DNA of 64,000 bases from Parasporobacterium sp. (GTDB lineage Bacteria > Bacillota > Clostridia > Lachnospirales > Lachnospiraceae). The position numbers and the translations under genes are program-made. The stretch spans positions 16,283-80,282 of the forward strand of contig JAFWOB010000081.1 in the NCBI GenBank assembly GCA_017510065.1. Reading direction: 5' to 3'. Below the pieces are notes generated by a model. It saw nothing but the letters and a program-made list of their open reading frames with translations, was not told the DNA's origin and searched no databases. Of the stretch, positions 15,821 through 61,219 are shown in pieces (position 1 is the first letter of the stretch; every line of letters starts with the position of its first letter).

Positions 15821-16275
15821 AATACATTGCCGGACTGGTAAGTCCGGGCTATACCGTTGCGGATATAGGCACAGACCATGGGTATGTGCCTGTCTTTCTG
15901 CTGCGGGAGAAAATCATCCCGCATGCCATTGCAGTAGACCTCAGCAAAGGATCTCTGGAAAAGGCCAGGGAACTGGCGGAGCAGGCAGGACTGCGGGAAC
16001 AGATGGACTGCCGCCTTTCAGACGGCCTTTCCGATGTGAAACCGGGGGAGGCACAGTGTATCATCATCGCCGGGATGGGAGGTATTCTGATGCGCAGGAT
16101 TCTGGACAGCGGCCTGGAGACAGTCCTGGCAGCAGACGAACTGATCCTGTCTCCACACAGGAATCCGGAACTGATCCTGGATTTTTTGGAAGAACATTCT
16201 TTTCGTGTTGTATCGGATGAGATCATAACGGATAAAAAAAAGCAATACAGGGTCATAAAAGCTGTACGTCTTTGA
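15799..16275 (+). CDS. trmK: tRNA (adenine(22)-N1)-methyltransferase, short form
   Basis: 158 residues. It has a Rossmann methyltransferase core with VADIGTDHGYVP (SAM loop), the acidic IAVDLSKGSLEKA, and IAGMGGILMRRIL (catalytic region), as in TrmK, which methylates A22 of tRNA. It ends soon after the last strand of the fold (KKQYRVIKAVRL), so the ~70-residue helical C-terminal domain of typical TrmK (~225-235 aa) is missing. The usual downstream Nif3-like gene is absent. It overlaps dnaG by 22 nt without its own clear ribosome site. The truncation may impair tRNA binding; this could be a reduced gene. Confidence 0.8.
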   Translation: MSISFRLKYIAGLVSPGYTVADIGTDHGYVPVFLLREKIIPHAIAVDLSKGSLEKARELAEQAGLREQMDCRLSDGLSDVKPGEAQCIIIAGMGGILMRRILDSGLETVLAADELILSPHRNPELILDFLEEHSFRVVSDEIITDKKKQYRVIKAVRL

Positions 16276-16298
16276 TTCTTACATGAAATCTGCATACT

Positions 16299-16369
16299 CG
16301 CCTGTTGTCAGAACCCCTGCAGAAAACGCATTTGCTGATTGTTTTCTGCAGGGGTTCTGACAGCAGGCG
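16299..16369. repeat. 29-bp near-perfect inverted repeat between trmK and ppdK
   Basis: Arms 16299-16327 and 16341-16369 pair over 29 bp with a single G-U wobble around a 13-nt loop. The stem is GC-rich at its middle. There is no T tract on either strand, so it is not a textbook terminator, though it may still block transcription into ppdK or protect mRNA ends. Confidence 0.8.
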
Positions 16370-16454
16370 TGTGTACAAACTTCGTACAGGGTAAAAATGT
16401 ACAATTTTTTGTTCTATTTTCAGATAACTTTAATGATTGTTTTGTATTGGAATG

Positions 16455-16519: not shown

Positions 16520-19195
16520 ATGGCAAAGAAGTATTGTTACCTGTTTTCAGAAGGAAATGCCACCATGCGCGAATTACTGGGCGGCAAGGGTGCTAACCTT
16601 GCTGAGATGACCAACATCGGACTTCCGGTTCCTCAGGGATTCACGATCACAACGGAAGCTTGTACTCAGTATTACGATGACGGCCGTACCATCAATGACG
16701 GTATCATGGCTGAGATAATGGAATATGTGGAGAAAATGGAGGAGATCAACGGCAAGAAGTTTGGGGATCCTGTTAATCCGCTGCTTGTTTCCGTCCGTTC
16801 CGGCGCCAGGGCATCCATGCCTGGTATGATGGATACGATCCTGAACCTTGGTCTTAATGACGATGTTGTCGCATCGATGATCAAAGGTAATCCGGATCCG
16901 AATTTTGAGCGTTTTGTTTACGACTCCTATCGCCGTTTTATCCAGATGTTCTCAGATGTAGTCATGGAAGTAGGCAAGAAATACTTCGAGCAGCTGATCG
17001 ACCGGATGAAAGAACAGAAAGGTGTAGTTTTTGACGTAGATCTTTCTGCACAGGATCTTAAGGAACTGGCAGAACAGTTCAAGGCAGAATATAAGAAACA
17101 GATCGGCAGTGACTTCCCTTCAGATCCGAAAGTTCAGCTTTATGAAGCTGTAAGAGCTGTGTTCCGTTCCTGGGACAACCCGCGTGCCAACGTTTACAGA
17201 CGTGACAACGATATCCCGTATTCCTGGGGTACTGCTGTCAATGTTATGCCTATGGTATTCGGTAATCTGAACAACAATTCCGGAACAGGCGTTGCCTTTA
17301 CAAGAGATCCCGCAACAGGCGAGAAGAAGCTCATGGGTGAGTTCCTGATCAATGCCCAGGGCGAAGACGTGGTAGCCGGTGTCAGAACTCCGATGCCGAT
17401 CGCGCAGATGGCTGAGCATTTCCCGGAAGCTTATGCGGAATTTATCAGCGTATGTGATCTCCTTGAAAAACATTATCATGATATGCAGGATATGGAATTT
17501 ACCGTTGAGAACGGCAAACTCTACATGCTTCAGTGCCGTAACGGCAAACGTACCGCTCAGGCAGCCCTTAAGATCGCATGCGATCTGGTTGATGAAGGCA
17601 TGAAGACGGAAGAAGAAGCTGTCCTCATGATCGATCCGCGTAACCTGGATACCCTGCTTCATCCGCAGTTCGACGCCGCTTCCCTTAAGAAGGCAGAAGC
17701 CATCGGCAGAGGTCTCGGCGCTTCTCCGGGAGCAGCCTGCGGCAAAGTGGTATTTACTGCTGAGGACGCTGCAGCATGGGCTGAAAGAGGCGAGAAAGTC
17801 GTACTGGTAAGACTGGAGACTTCTCCGGAAGATATCACCGGTATGAAAGCAGCAGAAGGCATCCTGACCGTCAGAGGCGGTATGACTTCTCATGCAGCCG
17901 TTGTTGCCAGAGGTATGGGCAAATGCTGCGTATCCGGATGCGGTGATATCGTCATGGATGAAGAAGCCAAGGAATTCACCCTGGCCGGCAGGACTTTCCA
18001 TGAAGGAGATGTGATCTCCATCGACGGCTCCACCGGTAACATTTACGGTGGAAAGATTCCTACCACAGACGCTACGATCGCCGGCGAATTCGGACGCATT
18101 ATGAGCTGGGCAGACAGCTTCCGTAAGCTGAAAGTACGTACCAACGCGGATACTCCGGACGATGCAAAGAGAGCAAGAGAACTTGGCGCAGAAGGCATCG
18201 GCCTGTGCCGTACCGAGCACATGTTCTTTGAAGCAGACAGAATTGCTGCTTTCCGCGAGATGATCTGTGCAGATACCAAGGAAGAACGCGAAAAAGCTCT
18301 GGATAAGGTACTTCCATATCAGCAGGCTGACTTTGAAGCAATCTTTGAGGCAATGGCAGGCCTTCCGGTCACGATCCGTTTCCTGGATCCGCCGCTTCAT
18401 GAGTTTGTTCCGACAGAAGAAGCAGATATCGAATTGCTGGCGAAATCCCAGGGCAAGACAGTTGAGCAGGTAAAGGCTGTGATCGAATCCCTGAAGGAAT
18501 TCAACCCGATGATGGGACATCGTGGATGCCGTCTGGCAGTCACTTACCCTGAGATTGCCAAGATGCAGACACAGGCTGTGATCCGTGCCGCGATCAACGT
18601 TACACGCAAAGATCCTGCCAATGCCGTTGTTCCGGAGATCATGATCCCGCTGACCTGCGACTCCAAGGAATACAACTTCGTAAGAAAAGTTGTTGTAGAT
18701 ACAGCAGATGCTGAGATCGCCGCAGCCGGTATCAAGATCGATTATGAAGTTGGTACCATGATCGAGATCCCGAGAGCCGCGATCGTGGCCGACGAGATCG
18801 CTCCGACCGCTGACTTCTTCTGCTTCGGTACGAACGACCTTACCCAGATGTGCTTCGGTTTCAGCCGTGACGACGCTACCAAGTTCCTTGGTGCATACTA
18901 CGATCACAAGATCCTGGAGAATGATCCGTTTGCAAGACTTGACAGAGACGGTGTCGGAAGACTGATGAGCCTGACTCTGAAACTCAGCAAACCGGTTAAT
19001 CCGAAGATGCATTACGGTATCTGCGGTGAGCACGGTGGTGATCCGACTTCTGTGGAAATCTGTCATGAACTGGGACTGGACTATGTATCCTGTTCACCGT
19101 TCCGTGTACCGATCGCAAGACTGGCAGCTGCACAGGCGGCGATCAAAATGCCGAATGTACCAAAGGAGCAGAATCTGGTCATGGCCGACCTGTAA
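16520..19195 (+). CDS. ppdK: Pyruvate, phosphate dikinase
   Basis: 891 residues from the ATG at 16520 (GAAGGGA 9 nt upstream). It interconverts pyruvate + ATP + Pi with PEP + AMP + PPi. Domain order: N-terminal ATP-grasp nucleotide domain, swivelling phosphohistidine domain with GGMTSHAAVVARG (His458, matching His455 of the Clostridium symbiosum enzyme), then the PEP/pyruvate TIM barrel ending in ICGEHGGDPTS with the catalytic Cys near 835. PPDK is often used glycolytically in anaerobic Clostridia. Strong codon bias (GGT, CTT, CGT) suggests high expression. A strong terminator follows. Confidence 0.98.
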   Translation: MAKKYCYLFSEGNATMRELLGGKGANLAEMTNIGLPVPQGFTITTEACTQYYDDGRTINDGIMAEIMEYVEKMEEINGKKFGDPVNPLLVSVRSGARASMPGMMDTILNLGLNDDVVASMIKGNPDPNFERFVYDSYRRFIQMFSDVVMEVGKKYFEQLIDRMKEQKGVVFDVDLSAQDLKELAEQFKAEYKKQIGSDFPSDPKVQLYEAVRAVFRSWDNPRANVYRRDNDIPYSWGTAVNVMPMVFGNLNNNSGTGVAFTRDPATGEKKLMGEFLINAQGEDVVAGVRTPMPIAQMAEHFPEAYAEFISVCDLLEKHYHDMQDMEFTVENGKLYMLQCRNGKRTAQAALKIACDLVDEGMKTEEEAVLMIDPRNLDTLLHPQFDAASLKKAEAIGRGLGASPGAACGKVVFTAEDAAAWAERGEKVVLVRLETSPEDITGMKAAEGILTVRGGMTSHAAVVARGMGKCCVSGCGDIVMDEEAKEFTLAGRTFHEGDVISIDGSTGNIYGGKIPTTDATIAGEFGRIMSWADSFRKLKVRTNADTPDDAKRARELGAEGIGLCRTEHMFFEADRIAAFREMICADTKEEREKALDKVLPYQQADFEAIFEAMAGLPVTIRFLDPPLHEFVPTEEADIELLAKSQGKTVEQVKAVIESLKEFNPMMGHRGCRLAVTYPEIAKMQTQAVIRAAINVTRKDPANAVVPEIMIPLTCDSKEYNFVRKVVVDTADAEIAAAGIKIDYEVGTMIEIPRAAIVADEIAPTADFFCFGTNDLTQMCFGFSRDDATKFLGAYYDHKILENDPFARLDRDGVGRLMSLTLKLSKPVNPKMHYGICGEHGGDPTSVEICHELGLDYVSCSPFRVPIARLAAAQAAIKMPNVPKEQNLVMADL

Positions 19196-19238
19196 GAGCA
19201 TGCTGACTGAACTGAATTATTGCTTGTTTTAGGAAATC

Positions 19239-19288
19239 ACGACCCGCAGCCGGGTGAAATTTCAGGCTGCGGGTCGTTTTTTCTTTTT
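19239..19288 (+). terminator. Rho-independent terminator of ppdK
   Basis: A 13-bp perfect stem (19239-19251 with 19265-19277) is followed by a run of T residues to 19288. Confidence 0.9.
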
Positions 19289-19335
19289 GCGAGATTGCGT
19301 GATGCTGCTGCAGTCTGGTGTCCGGTCATGGATTT

Positions 19336-19578
19336 TCATGCGAAATTATAAAAATGTCAATTTCACATAATGGATTGAGTGCCTTTATCATGCGGGATTT
19401 TAAAAATGCTGATTTCGCATGATAAATTAAGTGCCATTTTCATGCAAAAATAAAAAAACTCAGATTTCGCATGAAAAATCAGTCAAAAAACTAGTGTGAA
19501 AATTTCAAAATTGAATTTTCGCATGAAAACTTCGCCCGAAAACTCATGCGAAAAACCGTTTTCTCACATTTTGCATGA
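19336..19578. repeat. Phased array: 10 alternating 9-bp motifs every 26 bp (5 units of 52 bp)
   Basis: TCATGCGAA-type motifs start at 19336, 19388, 19440, 19492 and 19544. Their reverse complement (TTCGCATGA type) starts at 19362, 19414, 19466, 19518 and 19570. Every step is exactly 26 bp with strictly alternating orientation. Matches to the 9-mer are 9, 7, 7, 9, 8, 9, 6, 9, 9 and 8 of 9. Units 1 and 2 are similar throughout, whereas spacers of units 3-5 have diverged strongly with no length change. No gene is present between 19196 and 19673; this array, the ppdK terminator and a downstream -10 element are its whole content. Confidence 0.85.
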
Positions 19579-19640: not shown

Positions 19641-19649
19641 TGATATAAT
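19641..19649 (+). promoter_or_regulatory. Extended -10 promoter of the DUF523 gene
   Basis: TGATATAAT gives a consensus TATAAT with the TGn extension, 25 bp upstream of the start codon. No good -35 is seen; the phased array ends 63 bp upstream. Confidence 0.6.
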
Positions 19650-19673: not shown

Positions 19674-20108
19674 ATGAAGATCATGGTCAGTGCCTGCCTG
19701 CTGGGGGAAAACTGCAAGTATAACGGAGAAAACAACTATAATGAGAATGTTTTGGCATTTGTGCAGGGGCATGACGTGATCCCTGTCTGTCCGGAGGTTA
19801 TGGGCGGACTGCCCACTCCGAGAGTTCCTTCAGAGATCCGTCAGGGGATCGTTATCAATCAGGAAGGGGTTTCTGTTGACAGACAGTTCCGGGCTGGCGC
19901 GAAGGAGTGCCTGGCCATCGCGCTGAAGGAACAGCCGGAACTTGTGATCTTTAAGGCGCGAAGCCCCAGCTGCGGTAAGAAGCAGCATTATGACGGAACA
20001 TTTACACAGACTCTGACGGACGGACCGGGGATCACTGCCGCCCTTCTGCGCGAAAACGGATTCCGCATTATAGAGGAAGATGAGATTGCGGCAGATTTTG
20101 AAAAGTGA
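19674..20108 (+). CDS. DUF523 domain-containing protein
   Basis: 144 residues from the ATG at 19674, which has GAGGAGG 6 nt upstream. It has the family hallmarks VSACLLGENCKYNG at the N-terminus, PVCPEVMGGLPTPR near residue 38, and FKARSPSCG near residue 92, with conserved Cys residues probably binding metal or a cluster. The family is widespread and its biochemical role is not settled. cysK follows 49 bp later and may be co-transcribed. Confidence 0.9.
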   Translation: MKIMVSACLLGENCKYNGENNYNENVLAFVQGHDVIPVCPEVMGGLPTPRVPSEIRQGIVINQEGVSVDRQFRAGAKECLAIALKEQPELVIFKARSPSCGKKQHYDGTFTQTLTDGPGITAALLRENGFRIIEEDEIAADFEK

Positions 20109-29323: not shown

Positions 29324-29559
29324 TCAAAGACTACTTTTTCTGCAAATCCTGAATTGTGTTAATATTTCACAGAAAACGCAGAATATTTTTGACATTTAAT
29401 CGTCATTATACACAACATACAACAAATTAACTAATTAAAGAAACAAATCACCATATTCGATAGTGGTGCGTGTTTGATAGAATCAGAATATCTAAATCTA
29501 TGGCATCGTTCCACTCCACTCAATGGGCGGTGTACATAAAGAAAAGGAGAAGATCCCTT

Positions 29560-29676
29560 ATGATTCAGGGTGCGGCAGTGTGGAGACCTGTCGTAAAGCG
29601 TTCCGGGTCAGACTCCCGGTTCTGTGAGGTGTTCGTTAGCGGTAGCTGGGACACTGGAATCATGATAAATGGCTGA
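29560..29676 (+). CDS. Candidate 38-residue leader peptide overlapping the ATPase gene; region also folds as RNA
   Basis: The ATG at 29560 has AAGGAG 10 nt upstream. The frame runs 38 codons (beginning MIQGAAVWRPVV) and ends at TGA 29674-29676, so it overlaps the ATPase start (29669) by 8 nt. The ATPase ATG has no ribosome site of its own, which fits coupling to this frame. The same stretch can form a closing stem (29560-29566 with 29657-29663), hairpins 73-78/88-93 and 603-607/615-619 (offsets from 29500 and 29000), and a fourth at 29629-29654. The non-coding part upstream (29324-29559) is AT-rich with no recognised element. Leader peptide and structured RNA are both possible. Confidence 0.5.
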   Translation: MIQGAAVWRPVVKRSGSDSRFCEVFVSGSWDTGIMING

Positions 29677-45388: not shown

Positions 45389-46768
45389 TTATTTGTCTGT
45401 CACTTCGGAAACTTCTTCTGCAACTTCGGAGACTTCTTCTGCAACCTCTTCTGTGGCTTCGGAGACTTCCTCTGCAACTTCTTCCGCGGCTTCGGAGGCT
45501 TCCTCTACAACTTCTTCCGCGGCTTCGGAGGCTTCTTCTACAACTTCTTCTGCTGCATCGGAAACTTCCTCAACTACCTCTTCCGCAGCTTCAGAAACTT
45601 CTTCCGCAGTTTCTTCCACCGGAGATTCTACCATGACAACGTTCTGCTTCAGATAATCCATGACCTTCGGCATCAGAACTTCTGTTTCACGGACAAGGAA
45701 ATTGAATGCATCGCCAGACTGGGCTTTGAATTCATCCAGCGTTCCTTCAAAGTTCTCCTGTTCCATATATTTGGTGACCACCTCATCCAGCTCTTCTTCT
45801 GTGAAGGTGATATTCTGTTCTTCGGCCACTTTGTCGACCATCATGGTCTGATCCAGAGTCCGCTTTGCTTCTGCATCGGCATATGCATCAGCAGATTCAT
45901 ATCCCATCATGGAAGCATACTGCGATGCATCGACACCAAACATGGATGCGTAGTAGGAAACAGCAGACATATTATAGGTAGTCAGATCAGCAAGATCTTT
46001 TTCGTTATAATATTTGACATGTGTCTTTTCACCCATTGCGCTGAGGATTGCTGATTCCAGATTGTTGTTTCTCTGGTTCTCGGCATAGTATTCTCTGAGT
46101 TCCCCGATGGTAGAGAATTCCTGATCAAGATGTTCGGCAGAGTAGTGCTGTACCAGTTCGTCGGTAAGTTCCGGAACATTGGCAACATGCTTGCTGTTGA
46201 TCGTGATGGTAAATACGGCATTCTTGCCGGCAAGGTCTTCCGTGGAATAATCTTCCGGGAATGTTACATTGATATCGAATGTTTCACCGATCTCATGACC
46301 GATGATCTGATCTTCAAATCCGTCGATCATGGTGCCGGAACCCAGTGTCAGGGACTGTCCCTGCGCTGTGCCGCCTGCAAACGGTTCTTCCTCGCCCTCC
46401 AGGACGCCGGAGTAATCCAGGTTGATGGTGTCACCGTCCTGCACGGTACCTTCTGTGACATCTTCATAGGTCGTTTCGGCAGAGACAACATTGTTCATAT
46501 AGTTATCGATGGTGCTTTCAGTTACTTCCACCTGAGACTCATCAATCTCGAGTACGGAATAGTCATCGAGTTCCACTTTGCCGTTGATCATATCCTGTGT
46601 TTTAAACCATCCGTTGTTGCCGCCGATGATGGCCAGGATGCCGAGTACGATGACGGCGATCACGATAACCCATGCTGTCGTTTTCTTGGTCCATTTGCTC
46701 TTGGGTTTGATGTGTTCGGGCTGATTGTAGGCACGGCCCTTGGTCTTTTTCACATTCTTGTCTTCCAT
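45389..46768 (-). CDS. Membrane-anchored FKBP-type PPIase / trigger-factor-like protein with acidic repeat tail
   Basis: 459 residues. Basic cytoplasmic N-terminus, one membrane segment (about 31-49), then an FKBP-type domain (GDTINLDYSGVLEGEE, LGSGTMIDGFEDQIIGHEIGE, about 112-170) and a helical trigger-factor-like C-domain. The last ~75 residues are 11-residue repeats of the type SEAAEEVVEEV, strongly acidic and probably helical. It is likely an extracytoplasmic folding chaperone. The repeat tail is encoded by a 33-bp tandem DNA repeat (about 45395-45610). Its own promoter and terminator are visible. Confidence 0.85.
   Translation of the reverse strand: MEDKNVKKTKGRAYNQPEHIKPKSKWTKKTTAWVIVIAVIVLGILAIIGGNNGWFKTQDMINGKVELDDYSVLEIDESQVEVTESTIDNYMNNVVSAETTYEDVTEGTVQDGDTINLDYSGVLEGEEEPFAGGTAQGQSLTLGSGTMIDGFEDQIIGHEIGETFDINVTFPEDYSTEDLAGKNAVFTITINSKHVANVPELTDELVQHYSAEHLDQEFSTIGELREYYAENQRNNNLESAILSAMGEKTHVKYYNEKDLADLTTYNMSAVSYYASMFGVDASQYASMMGYESADAYADAEAKRTLDQTMMVDKVAEEQNITFTEEELDEVVTKYMEQENFEGTLDEFKAQSGDAFNFLVRETEVLMPKVMDYLKQNVVMVESPVEETAEEVSEAAEEVVEEVSDAAEEVVEEASEAAEEVVEEASEAAEEVAEEVSEATEEVAEEVSEVAEEVSEVTDK
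45395..45610 (-). repeat. 33-bp tandem coding repeat (hendecad tail)
   Basis: About six imperfect 33-bp units encode consecutive SEAAEEVVEEV-type peptides at the C-terminus of the PPIase. The last units are shorter. Such repeats can change copy number by slippage. Confidence 0.8.
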
Positions 46769-60902: not shown

Positions 60903-61199
60903 TTTCTTACCATAGTTGATCGAAGAGAAGAAAAATGATTGTTTCGTATCAACCTATGCTACGAAGAGAGAAAAAAAGATATTTTCGTATCAGGCTATGC
61001 TACAAAGAGAGGAAAAAGTATCATTTCGTATCAGTCCTATGCTACGAAGAGAGGAAAAATGATTCTTTCGTATCAGGTTTTGCTACGAAGAAAACAAAAA
61101 ACCGTATTTCGTATCAAAAATTAGATACGAAACAATAGTTTTTTTTCTCTTCGTATCATCGCTTGATACGAAAGAAAGATTTTCTTTCTCTTCGTATCA
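60903..61199. repeat. Phased array of 41-42-bp palindromic units
   Basis: TTCGTATCA starts at 60943, 60984, 61025, 61067, 61108, 61150 and 61191 (steps 41, 41, 42, 41, 42, 41), 9/9 each. An inverted partner (TGCTACGAA or TGATACGAA) follows each of the first six by 14-15 bp, at 60957, 60998, 61040, 61081, 61123 and 61164. A decayed unit precedes at 60903-60924. Each pair can form a 6-9-bp hairpin; spacers between units are A-rich and variable. No gene is found from 60829 to 61264: tRNA promoter, this array, and the radical SAM promoter fill it. Confidence 0.88.
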
Positions 61200-61219
61200 T
61201 CTCCTCGCAGCAGACAGGC

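Follow-up and report, generated by a model that had tools for sequence, protein, structure and literature searches.

Fixed words and fixed distances in dispersed intergenic arrays of alternating 10-bp motifs in a bacterial genus

The window, a 64,000-bp stretch of Parasporobacterium sp. DNA, carries between two genes an array of ten short motifs in alternating orientation. Arrays with the same word and layout, hereafter family a, recur at other sites in the same genome and in two further genomes of the genus. Across these arrays the words and the distances between them are kept while the intervening letters drift. The reading that best fits this pattern, and that we consider probable, is an extragenic phased array on duplex DNA that is bound by a putative protein.

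Results

The array in the window

The original prediction described ten alternating motifs without an indel, and the array of TCATGCGAAA and TTTCGCATGA words at 19336-19578 agrees with that description.

19336..19578, unstranded: whole family a array, five 52-bp units, or ten alternating motifs
19336..19345, + strand: motif 1 (>), TCATGCGAAA, exact
19361..19370, - strand: motif 2 (<), TTTCACATAA, 2 mismatches
19388..19397, + strand: motif 3 (>), TCATGCGGGA, 2 mismatches
19413..19422, - strand: motif 4 (<), TTTCGCATGA, exact
19440..19449, + strand: motif 5 (>), TCATGCAAAA, 1 mismatch
19465..19474, - strand: motif 6 (<), TTTCGCATGA, exact
19492..19501, + strand: motif 7 (>), TAGTGTGAAA, degenerate, 3 mismatches
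19517..19526, - strand: motif 8 (<), TTTCGCATGA, exact
19544..19553, + strand: motif 9 (>), TCATGCGAAA, exact
19569..19578, - strand: motif 10 (<), TTTTGCATGA, 1 mismatch

Exact 10-mers make up five of the ten motifs; two others differ by one base, two by two and one by three. The predicted 26-bp step is correct for the centers of 9-mers, and the motif starts step by 25 bp (> to <) and 27 bp (< to >), with a period of 52 bp. TRF likewise reported a 52-bp period over 19332-19479 (score 147). The layout has a chain score of 103.4 in the window. When the full window was shuffled 20 times the best score was 17.4, and when the local 500 bp were shuffled 2000 times it was 19.4, which excludes a chance origin of the array. 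A coding repeat was also ruled out, because neither 52 nor 26 is a multiple of 3. In the base profile of 18 arrays, no 10-bp A/T rhythm such as A-tract curvature would give was seen by eye.

The array stands in the following surroundings.

16520..19195, + strand: left neighbor, pyruvate phosphate dikinase (Pfam PPDK_N, PEP-utilizers)
19233..19283, + strand: inverted repeat rich in G+C with a T run after it, resembling a terminator by eye (19-nt arms, 89%)
19674..20108, + strand: right neighbor, small protein with the Pfam domain PF04463 (2-thiouracil desulfurase)

The inverted repeat is placed between the dikinase gene and the array, and a scan for consensus terminators found no terminator-like site. 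TATAAT occurs at 19644; a promoter scan listed no promoter at that position and only four weak ones, all inside the window array. A search of the named genomes for the PF04463 neighbor returned three weak matches, of which two cover just 19 residues; they point to an affinity with Lachnospiraceae. In G001, no array was seen in the approximately 200 bp 3' of the dikinase gene, up to the contig end.

Dispersed copies and range of family a

In its own genome (G000; 3.47 Mb in 242 contigs) the word TTTCGCATGA occurs 14 times per strand, compared with 2 and 1 occurrences of a reversed control. Searched with at most three mismatches, the paired pattern was present at 33 places and its control at 0; as the pattern is self-complementary, the same 33 places were reported on both strands. 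Full or partial family a arrays were recognized at 14 loci of this genome, including L121, and L034 is a single unit. The arrays are commonly built of five 52-bp units and stand beside unrelated genes. Exactly ten words, the first > and the last <, are present in eleven arrays (seven in G000 and four in G012), and other arrays have 2 to 14 words.

With up to two mismatches, the pattern was matched in 8 of the 145 genomes searched. Match counts were 21 in G000, 14 in G012 and 10 in G001, three of the 14 genomes of one genus; outside those three there were two in G016 and one each in G029, G031, G053 and G069. The control pattern gave a single match in each of two of the 145 genomes, and both G016 matches are isolated near-perfect hairpins. 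At the search sensitivity used, family a is confined to part of one genus.

Family a arrays lie between open reading frames (ORFs) whose orientations are mixed, with co-directional pairs included, and the L025 array lies between ORFs that point apart (the ORFs were chosen mechanically in all of these cases). At L055:1988-2004, the array abuts the gene end, with a dihydroorotase ORF ending 4 bp past its last word. Among 19 neighbor proteins of the 14 loci (Pfam scan at E 1e-8; one protein without a Pfam match), the families are unrelated and no shared regulator, transposase or partition gene was found, which speaks against a common neighboring regulator among them. A phage or plasmid origin was rejected, as blastn searches against phages and plasmids gave no match. 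The one exact pattern match in viral contigs (L201) is a palindrome pair and not an array. This pair looks like parS. As for a parS/Noc site, the family a word differs from the parS 10-mer by one or two bases but is not palindromic.

Conserved words and distances beside diverging spacers

Conservation was assessed in a table of 94 units from 18 arrays (11 from G000, 3 from G001 and 4 from G012). The table leaves out L067, an orthologue of L024, together with short, broken or contig-end arrays (L034, L037, L058, L059, L060, L062, L063, L065, L070 and L121-L124), and the weak half-motifs at the ends of L030 and L055 were cut off. Both members of the orthologous pairs L029/L071 and L054/L069 are in it, as are the first units of L053 and L064, which have no good > motif in register. 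In these units TCATG is nearly invariant, with at least 89 of 94 in agreement at each position. A pyrimidine-purine (YR) step occupies positions 6-7 in nearly all cases, and A or T predominates at positions 8-10, giving the consensus TCATG-YR-WWW, while information in the spacers is at most 0.93 bit at every position.

Distances are similarly strict. Intervals were counted between consecutive exact TCATGYR words at most 70 bp apart at 31 loci in three genomes, with the short, broken or contig-end arrays, except L070, included. Exactly 25 bp separates 112 of the 119 >< pairs and exactly 27 bp separates 86 of the 91 <> pairs; where a word is skipped, 18 of the 22 intervals are exactly 52 bp. Deviating intervals are 24, 26 and 51 bp, plus a few far values. 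These intervals are not all independent, because the search pattern itself fixes one 25-bp interval for most loci and three orthologous pairs are counted twice.

Spacers of the same index agree between arrays at a mean of 44%. For spacers of any index, identity is.458 within arrays and.386 between them, where composition alone gives 30%, so that family a spacers are near-random, or near saturation. In some arrays the spacers are more alike and the arrays seemingly recent (L061.80, L030.61). The expectation of conserved motifs and spacing beside drifting spacers was borne out by the 94-unit profile and by diverged orthologous pairs; motifs that drift in relatives, or freely varying spacing, had been named as the contrary outcome, and in relatives the cores are kept and no small indels are present.

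The YR step also tends to be uniform throughout an array. It is the same in.559 of pairs within arrays and in.292 of pairs between arrays, with a permutation maximum of.369. In L054, L055 and L056, all 30 of 30 words carry TA, and within-array spacer identity is.40-.43. Since the spacers of these three arrays have diverged, recent duplication does not explain the uniformity.

These data bear on the proposal that the arrays are ordinary tandem repeats, whose similarity is kept by slippage, recombination and gene conversion with motif and spacing unselected. Unit number does vary, spacers are slightly more alike within than between arrays, and L061 and L030 look recent, all as such a process would have it. 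Yet in many arrays core and length are fixed beside spacers that are near-random, conversion copying would have preserved the spacers as well, and an identical layout is held at unrelated loci. We regard this proposal as very improbable.

Inverted partners do not covary

The original prediction allowed for a repeated structure in place of a protein-binding array. Taken as a hairpin, this part was not upheld: among the 94 units of 18 arrays, no covariation between inverted partners was found in three pairing schemes. Agreement at positions 6-7 was.729 for 25-bp partners (.739 in within-array shuffles, p.75),.757 for 27-bp partners (.737 in shuffles, p.24) and.729 for nested partners (.739 in shuffles, p.76). 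A long hairpin of the whole array was rejected, as nested pairing is not in excess. Within units, positions 6-7 are Watson-Crick in 137 of 188 cells and G-U in 26, and the RNA of the window array folds better than shuffles (z -6.7 and -5.2), as expected of an inverted repeat; both this pairing and the good folding follow from the array-wide uniformity of the words. The missing covariation makes a maintained hairpin unlikely for family a arrays.

It is conceivable that the inverted pairs fold as RNA or single-stranded DNA, either like the REP/BIME elements on which Y1 (RAYT-type) transposases act or in the manner of a 3' mRNA structure. The strong predicted folding agrees with this, TCATG and CATGA are nearly always complementary, and the central pair of another family (family d, below) covaries in its word prefix. 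Moreover, Y1 transposase genes (PF01797) are present in five of the 14 genus genomes, among them G000 and G001, which have family a. However, the other three (G002, G008 and G013) are without family a matches, and no such gene was found in array-rich G012, which is 79% complete. Beyond the core, Watson-Crick pairs make up only 116 of the 282 cells at positions 8-10, hairpins would not need loops of exactly 15 or linkers of exactly 17, and the L025 array lies between the diverging ORFs of the mechanical choice. Rfam returned no match at gathering score for the arrays of the window or of six other loci, which also speaks against a known structured RNA, and in a further Rfam scan of arrays nothing but microRNA families came up, far short of their gathering scores. 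With the absence of covariation, this leaves the folding explanation unlikely.

Other array families

Several motif families, family a among them, share a genome, and the layout of each is fixed or nearly so. A k-mer survey looked for clusters of words in both orientations; 398.5 kb of G000 yielded 14 and 400 kb of G001 yielded 8. In G000, 12 of the 14 clusters were read as arrays, one of the 12 being perhaps an IS21-type miniature element, and in G001, 6 of the 8 carry array words; in both genomes these are all of the clusters that were inspected. The survey missed both family a arrays known in the surveyed G000 stretch. The further families are placed as follows.

60921..61201 of the window, unstranded: second array, of family b, with arms of TTTCGTATCA / TGATACGAAA type and a 41/42-bp period
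L131:15240-15560, L139:3230-3570, L142:1340-1640, L145:1520-1830 and 16090-16400, and in G012 L176, L177, L179, L181 and L200: family d, TATGCATGATTTT words
L129:1510-1724, L131:8644-8850, L139:18141-18354 and L187: family e, TTAGAAAA/TTTTCTAA words
L063:1730-1960, L065:2080-2300 and L160:18065-18280, in G001: family c, with a CGAAAATCTCACGCAATGCTGCA unit every 61-62 bp

The family b array of the window consists of TTTCGTATCA-N5/6-TGCTACGAAG units every 41-42 bp with a turn of polarity. Ten dispersed G000 loci, this one included, carry the family (two overlapping contig ends were counted as one); its units are 40 to 43 bp long, and most of its steps are 15/16 or 26/27. Variants of family b contain GTAG. 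Family d words are arranged around a central hairpin, and the layout 41/41/33-34/31/41 or its mirror image is held in all ten arrays of at least four words. This layout is asymmetric and thus has a direction, and two of its allowed steps are about one helical turn apart. In the central pair of family d the prefix covaries (.85 vs.66 between arrays) and the core does not (.85 vs.87), nor do the outer pairs covary (.68 vs.65). The family e layout is symmetric about its center, with offsets 0, 34, 50, 84, 122, 156, 172 and 206 identical in four of four arrays (three loci and one orthologue). Units are mirrored about the center in families a, b, d and e.

DNA has approximately 10.4 bp per helical turn. 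At this value 31, 41-42 and 52 bp are near 3, 4 and 5 turns, and 61-62 and 50/72 bp fit less well. Phasing to whole turns is not general, as is seen from family c (61-62 bp) and family e (50/72 bp).

A solitary family a unit stands beside family c in both L063 and L065. Also in G001, GGCGGGTA words at steps of approximately 65 bp form an array at L166:15240-15530. The cluster of AGAATACA/TGTATTCT and GTTCTT/AAGAAC words at L135:2830-3150 is perhaps a further array family. At L145:9951-10214, three 30-bp direct repeats face three inverted ones across approximately 130 bp, and these look like a miniature element of the IS21 type.

Change, gain, loss and exchange at orthologous sites

Four orthologous pairs differ by substitutions and whole units, and not by small indels. 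At the livM-type permease site, G000 and G012 are identical at 241 of 243 positions, with no indel inside the array and four gaps in the flanks shown. The gyrB-gyrA site has five units in one genome and six in the other, which amounts to one whole 52-bp unit gained or lost; spacers are 85% and cores 97.5% identical, with no small indel inside and four gaps in the flanks. The orthologous pair of family e has no gap inside the array and six in its flanks.

The fourth pair is at an ABC-ATPase site (the gene was read by eye). Between G000 and G012 the core is identical at 50 of 50 positions and the spacers at 64%, with no indel inside the array and three gaps in the adjoining flanks; a stretch farther to the left is not homologous. 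Positions 6-7 agree at 0 of 20, since all ten words carry TA in G000 and CG in G012. The 64% spacer identity is the highest of 66 same-orientation pairs, although the non-orthologous pair L066/L069 reaches 62%, so that replacement of the array is indistinguishable here from change in place.

Presence and absence were also seen. Between hemW and rplS, G012 has an array that G000 does not, and the matching flanks in G000 are 13 bp apart; between pyrC and carB, the array of G000 is absent from G001, where the matching flanks are 76 bp apart. At an asparaginase site, family a in G012 is exchanged for three family d words in G000, in which one step is 42 rather than 41. By eye, no clean target duplication and no precise element borders were found at these two empty sites and the exchanged site.

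It might be supposed that the arrays are miniature elements derived from transposons, in which ends with several transposase-binding sites meet at the center, forward units to the left and reversed units to the right. The dispersed copies, the presence or absence of arrays and the exchange in the same slot would suit such an origin. So would a central change of polarity: the excess of T over A is higher in the left half of 17 of 18 family a arrays (sign-flip p.0002), and by eye the polarity of families b and d turns at the center as well, with exceptions such as L114. Against it stand the empty and exchanged sites with neither duplication nor precise borders, the lack of a transposase among the 19 neighbor proteins, and the conservation of motifs in strongly diverged copies, which requires continuing selection. 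Such an origin is therefore quite unlikely. A MITE, with terminal inverted repeats and a target-site duplication, was rejected by reason of the same empty and exchanged sites. A CRISPR array was also rejected: its repeats would be direct, nearly identical and 20-40 bp long, between unique spacers, and the words here are 10 bp long and of alternating orientation.

Discussion

A duplex array read by a protein complex is the explanation that we prefer, because words and distances appear to be under selection, inverted partners do not covary, and words change throughout an array. A putative sequence-specific protein would recognize the 10-bp word TCATG-YR-WWW, of which approximately ten copies would be held in alternating orientation with copies of the same direction exactly 52 bp apart, or about five helical turns. 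A multi-subunit or filament-forming complex, binding the duplex cooperatively, may occupy the whole 243-bp strip, and selection would hold the words and distances while the intervening letters drift. Within the genus, the array is one of a set of dispersed BIME-like elements, which appear, disappear and replace one another at sites between genes of unrelated kinds. The benefit may lie in the organization of the chromosome or in the spread of the element itself. Restriction to few genomes, gain and loss, and the exchange in one slot argue against an essential host role of any single array.

The original prediction of a phased protein-binding array or structure is upheld in part. Conservation of motif and spacing agrees with it; the hairpin form is not favored, given partners that do not covary, and no binding protein was found among the 19 neighbors. 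Made from one window, the prediction did not extend to the copies elsewhere in the genome, to the second array family of the window or to the orthologous sites that lack an array. It had also placed motifs of opposite orientation on opposite faces of the helix. Inverted neighbors are 26/26 bp apart by 9-mer centers and 30/22 bp apart by TCATG centers, and whether they lie on opposite faces depends on the base pairs that are contacted.

More speculatively, the arrays could represent an undescribed class of chromosomal nucleoprotein sites. Such a class would comprise several orthogonal families of rigid, center-mirrored arrays, with a separate oligomeric protein as the reader of each; the families would swap at intergenic slots and change their word array-wide (CG to TA) like a co-evolving partner system. 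We hold this broader view to be doubtful, if worth entertaining.

Among known systems, BIME/REP arrays come closest to the family a arrays. According to PMC2817692, BIMEs are REP palindromes that are extragenic, dispersed, multicopy and regularly spaced in alternating orientation; PMC6379681 describes gyrase binding and cutting at E. coli BIME-2, and PMC3733652 a GTAG or CGTC tag beside the REP palindrome. Family a is likewise extragenic, dispersed and multicopy, with 14 own-genome loci between ORFs, and regularly spaced in alternating orientation. Unlike REP, its word has no GTAG or CGTC tag, and its arms, 15 or 17 bp apart, do not covary as a paired stem would. The exact layout with diverged spacers and the several families per genome are also unlike BIMEs. 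Binding by gyrase, IHF or Pol I is a further trait of REP/BIME arrays. According to PMC3049150, the BOX elements of streptococci are composite intergenic repeats in which distinct A and C end modules flank tandem boxB repeats whose number varies among strains. A variable number of modules is all that family a has in common with BOX, as its 10-bp words switch orientation from one to the next and it showed no end modules.

Some arrays adjoin terminator-like hairpins between genes (by eye), as Rho-independent terminators or 3' mRNA hairpins would. In contrast to these, the arrays are separate from such hairpins; they are found as well between genes of the same direction and, at L025, between diverging ORFs. 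Plasmid centromere and iteron arrays of the sopC type are single loci by par or rep genes; their tandem units are phased and carry inverted words, to which a spreading dimeric protein binds. Phased tandem units with inverted words are common to these and family a, whereas family a occupies many chromosomal loci beside unrelated genes, and no ParA or ParB domain was found at E 1e-8 among the 19 neighbor proteins of the 14 loci.

If cooperative protein binding is true, the many natural arrays of several families within one genome are replicates for finding the protein and for testing effects of the arrays on chromosome shape, on transcription between neighbors and on their own spread. Through the strict distances, sequence alone would then reveal the geometry of the complex. 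If the arrays are selfish, they would form a BIME-like group within a branch of the bacteria where the literature consulted, in the portions available, mentions no such arrays. In the accessible portions of the open-licence literature we found no description of such arrays in this bacterial group, and PMC2267715 reports stem-loop clusters in two Clostridium species.

Other features were observed in the window and loci. A malK-I RNA, a known cis-regulatory RNA, is located at 29496-29674 of the window (Rfam RF03069, 112 bits), and a second one is found at L054:3371-3542, beside the array locus. A 33-bp tandem repeat at 45402-45617 of the window encodes the acidic, E/A/V-rich tail of a - strand ORF (45389-46768), the 459-aa product of which looks by eye like a trigger-factor-type chaperone.
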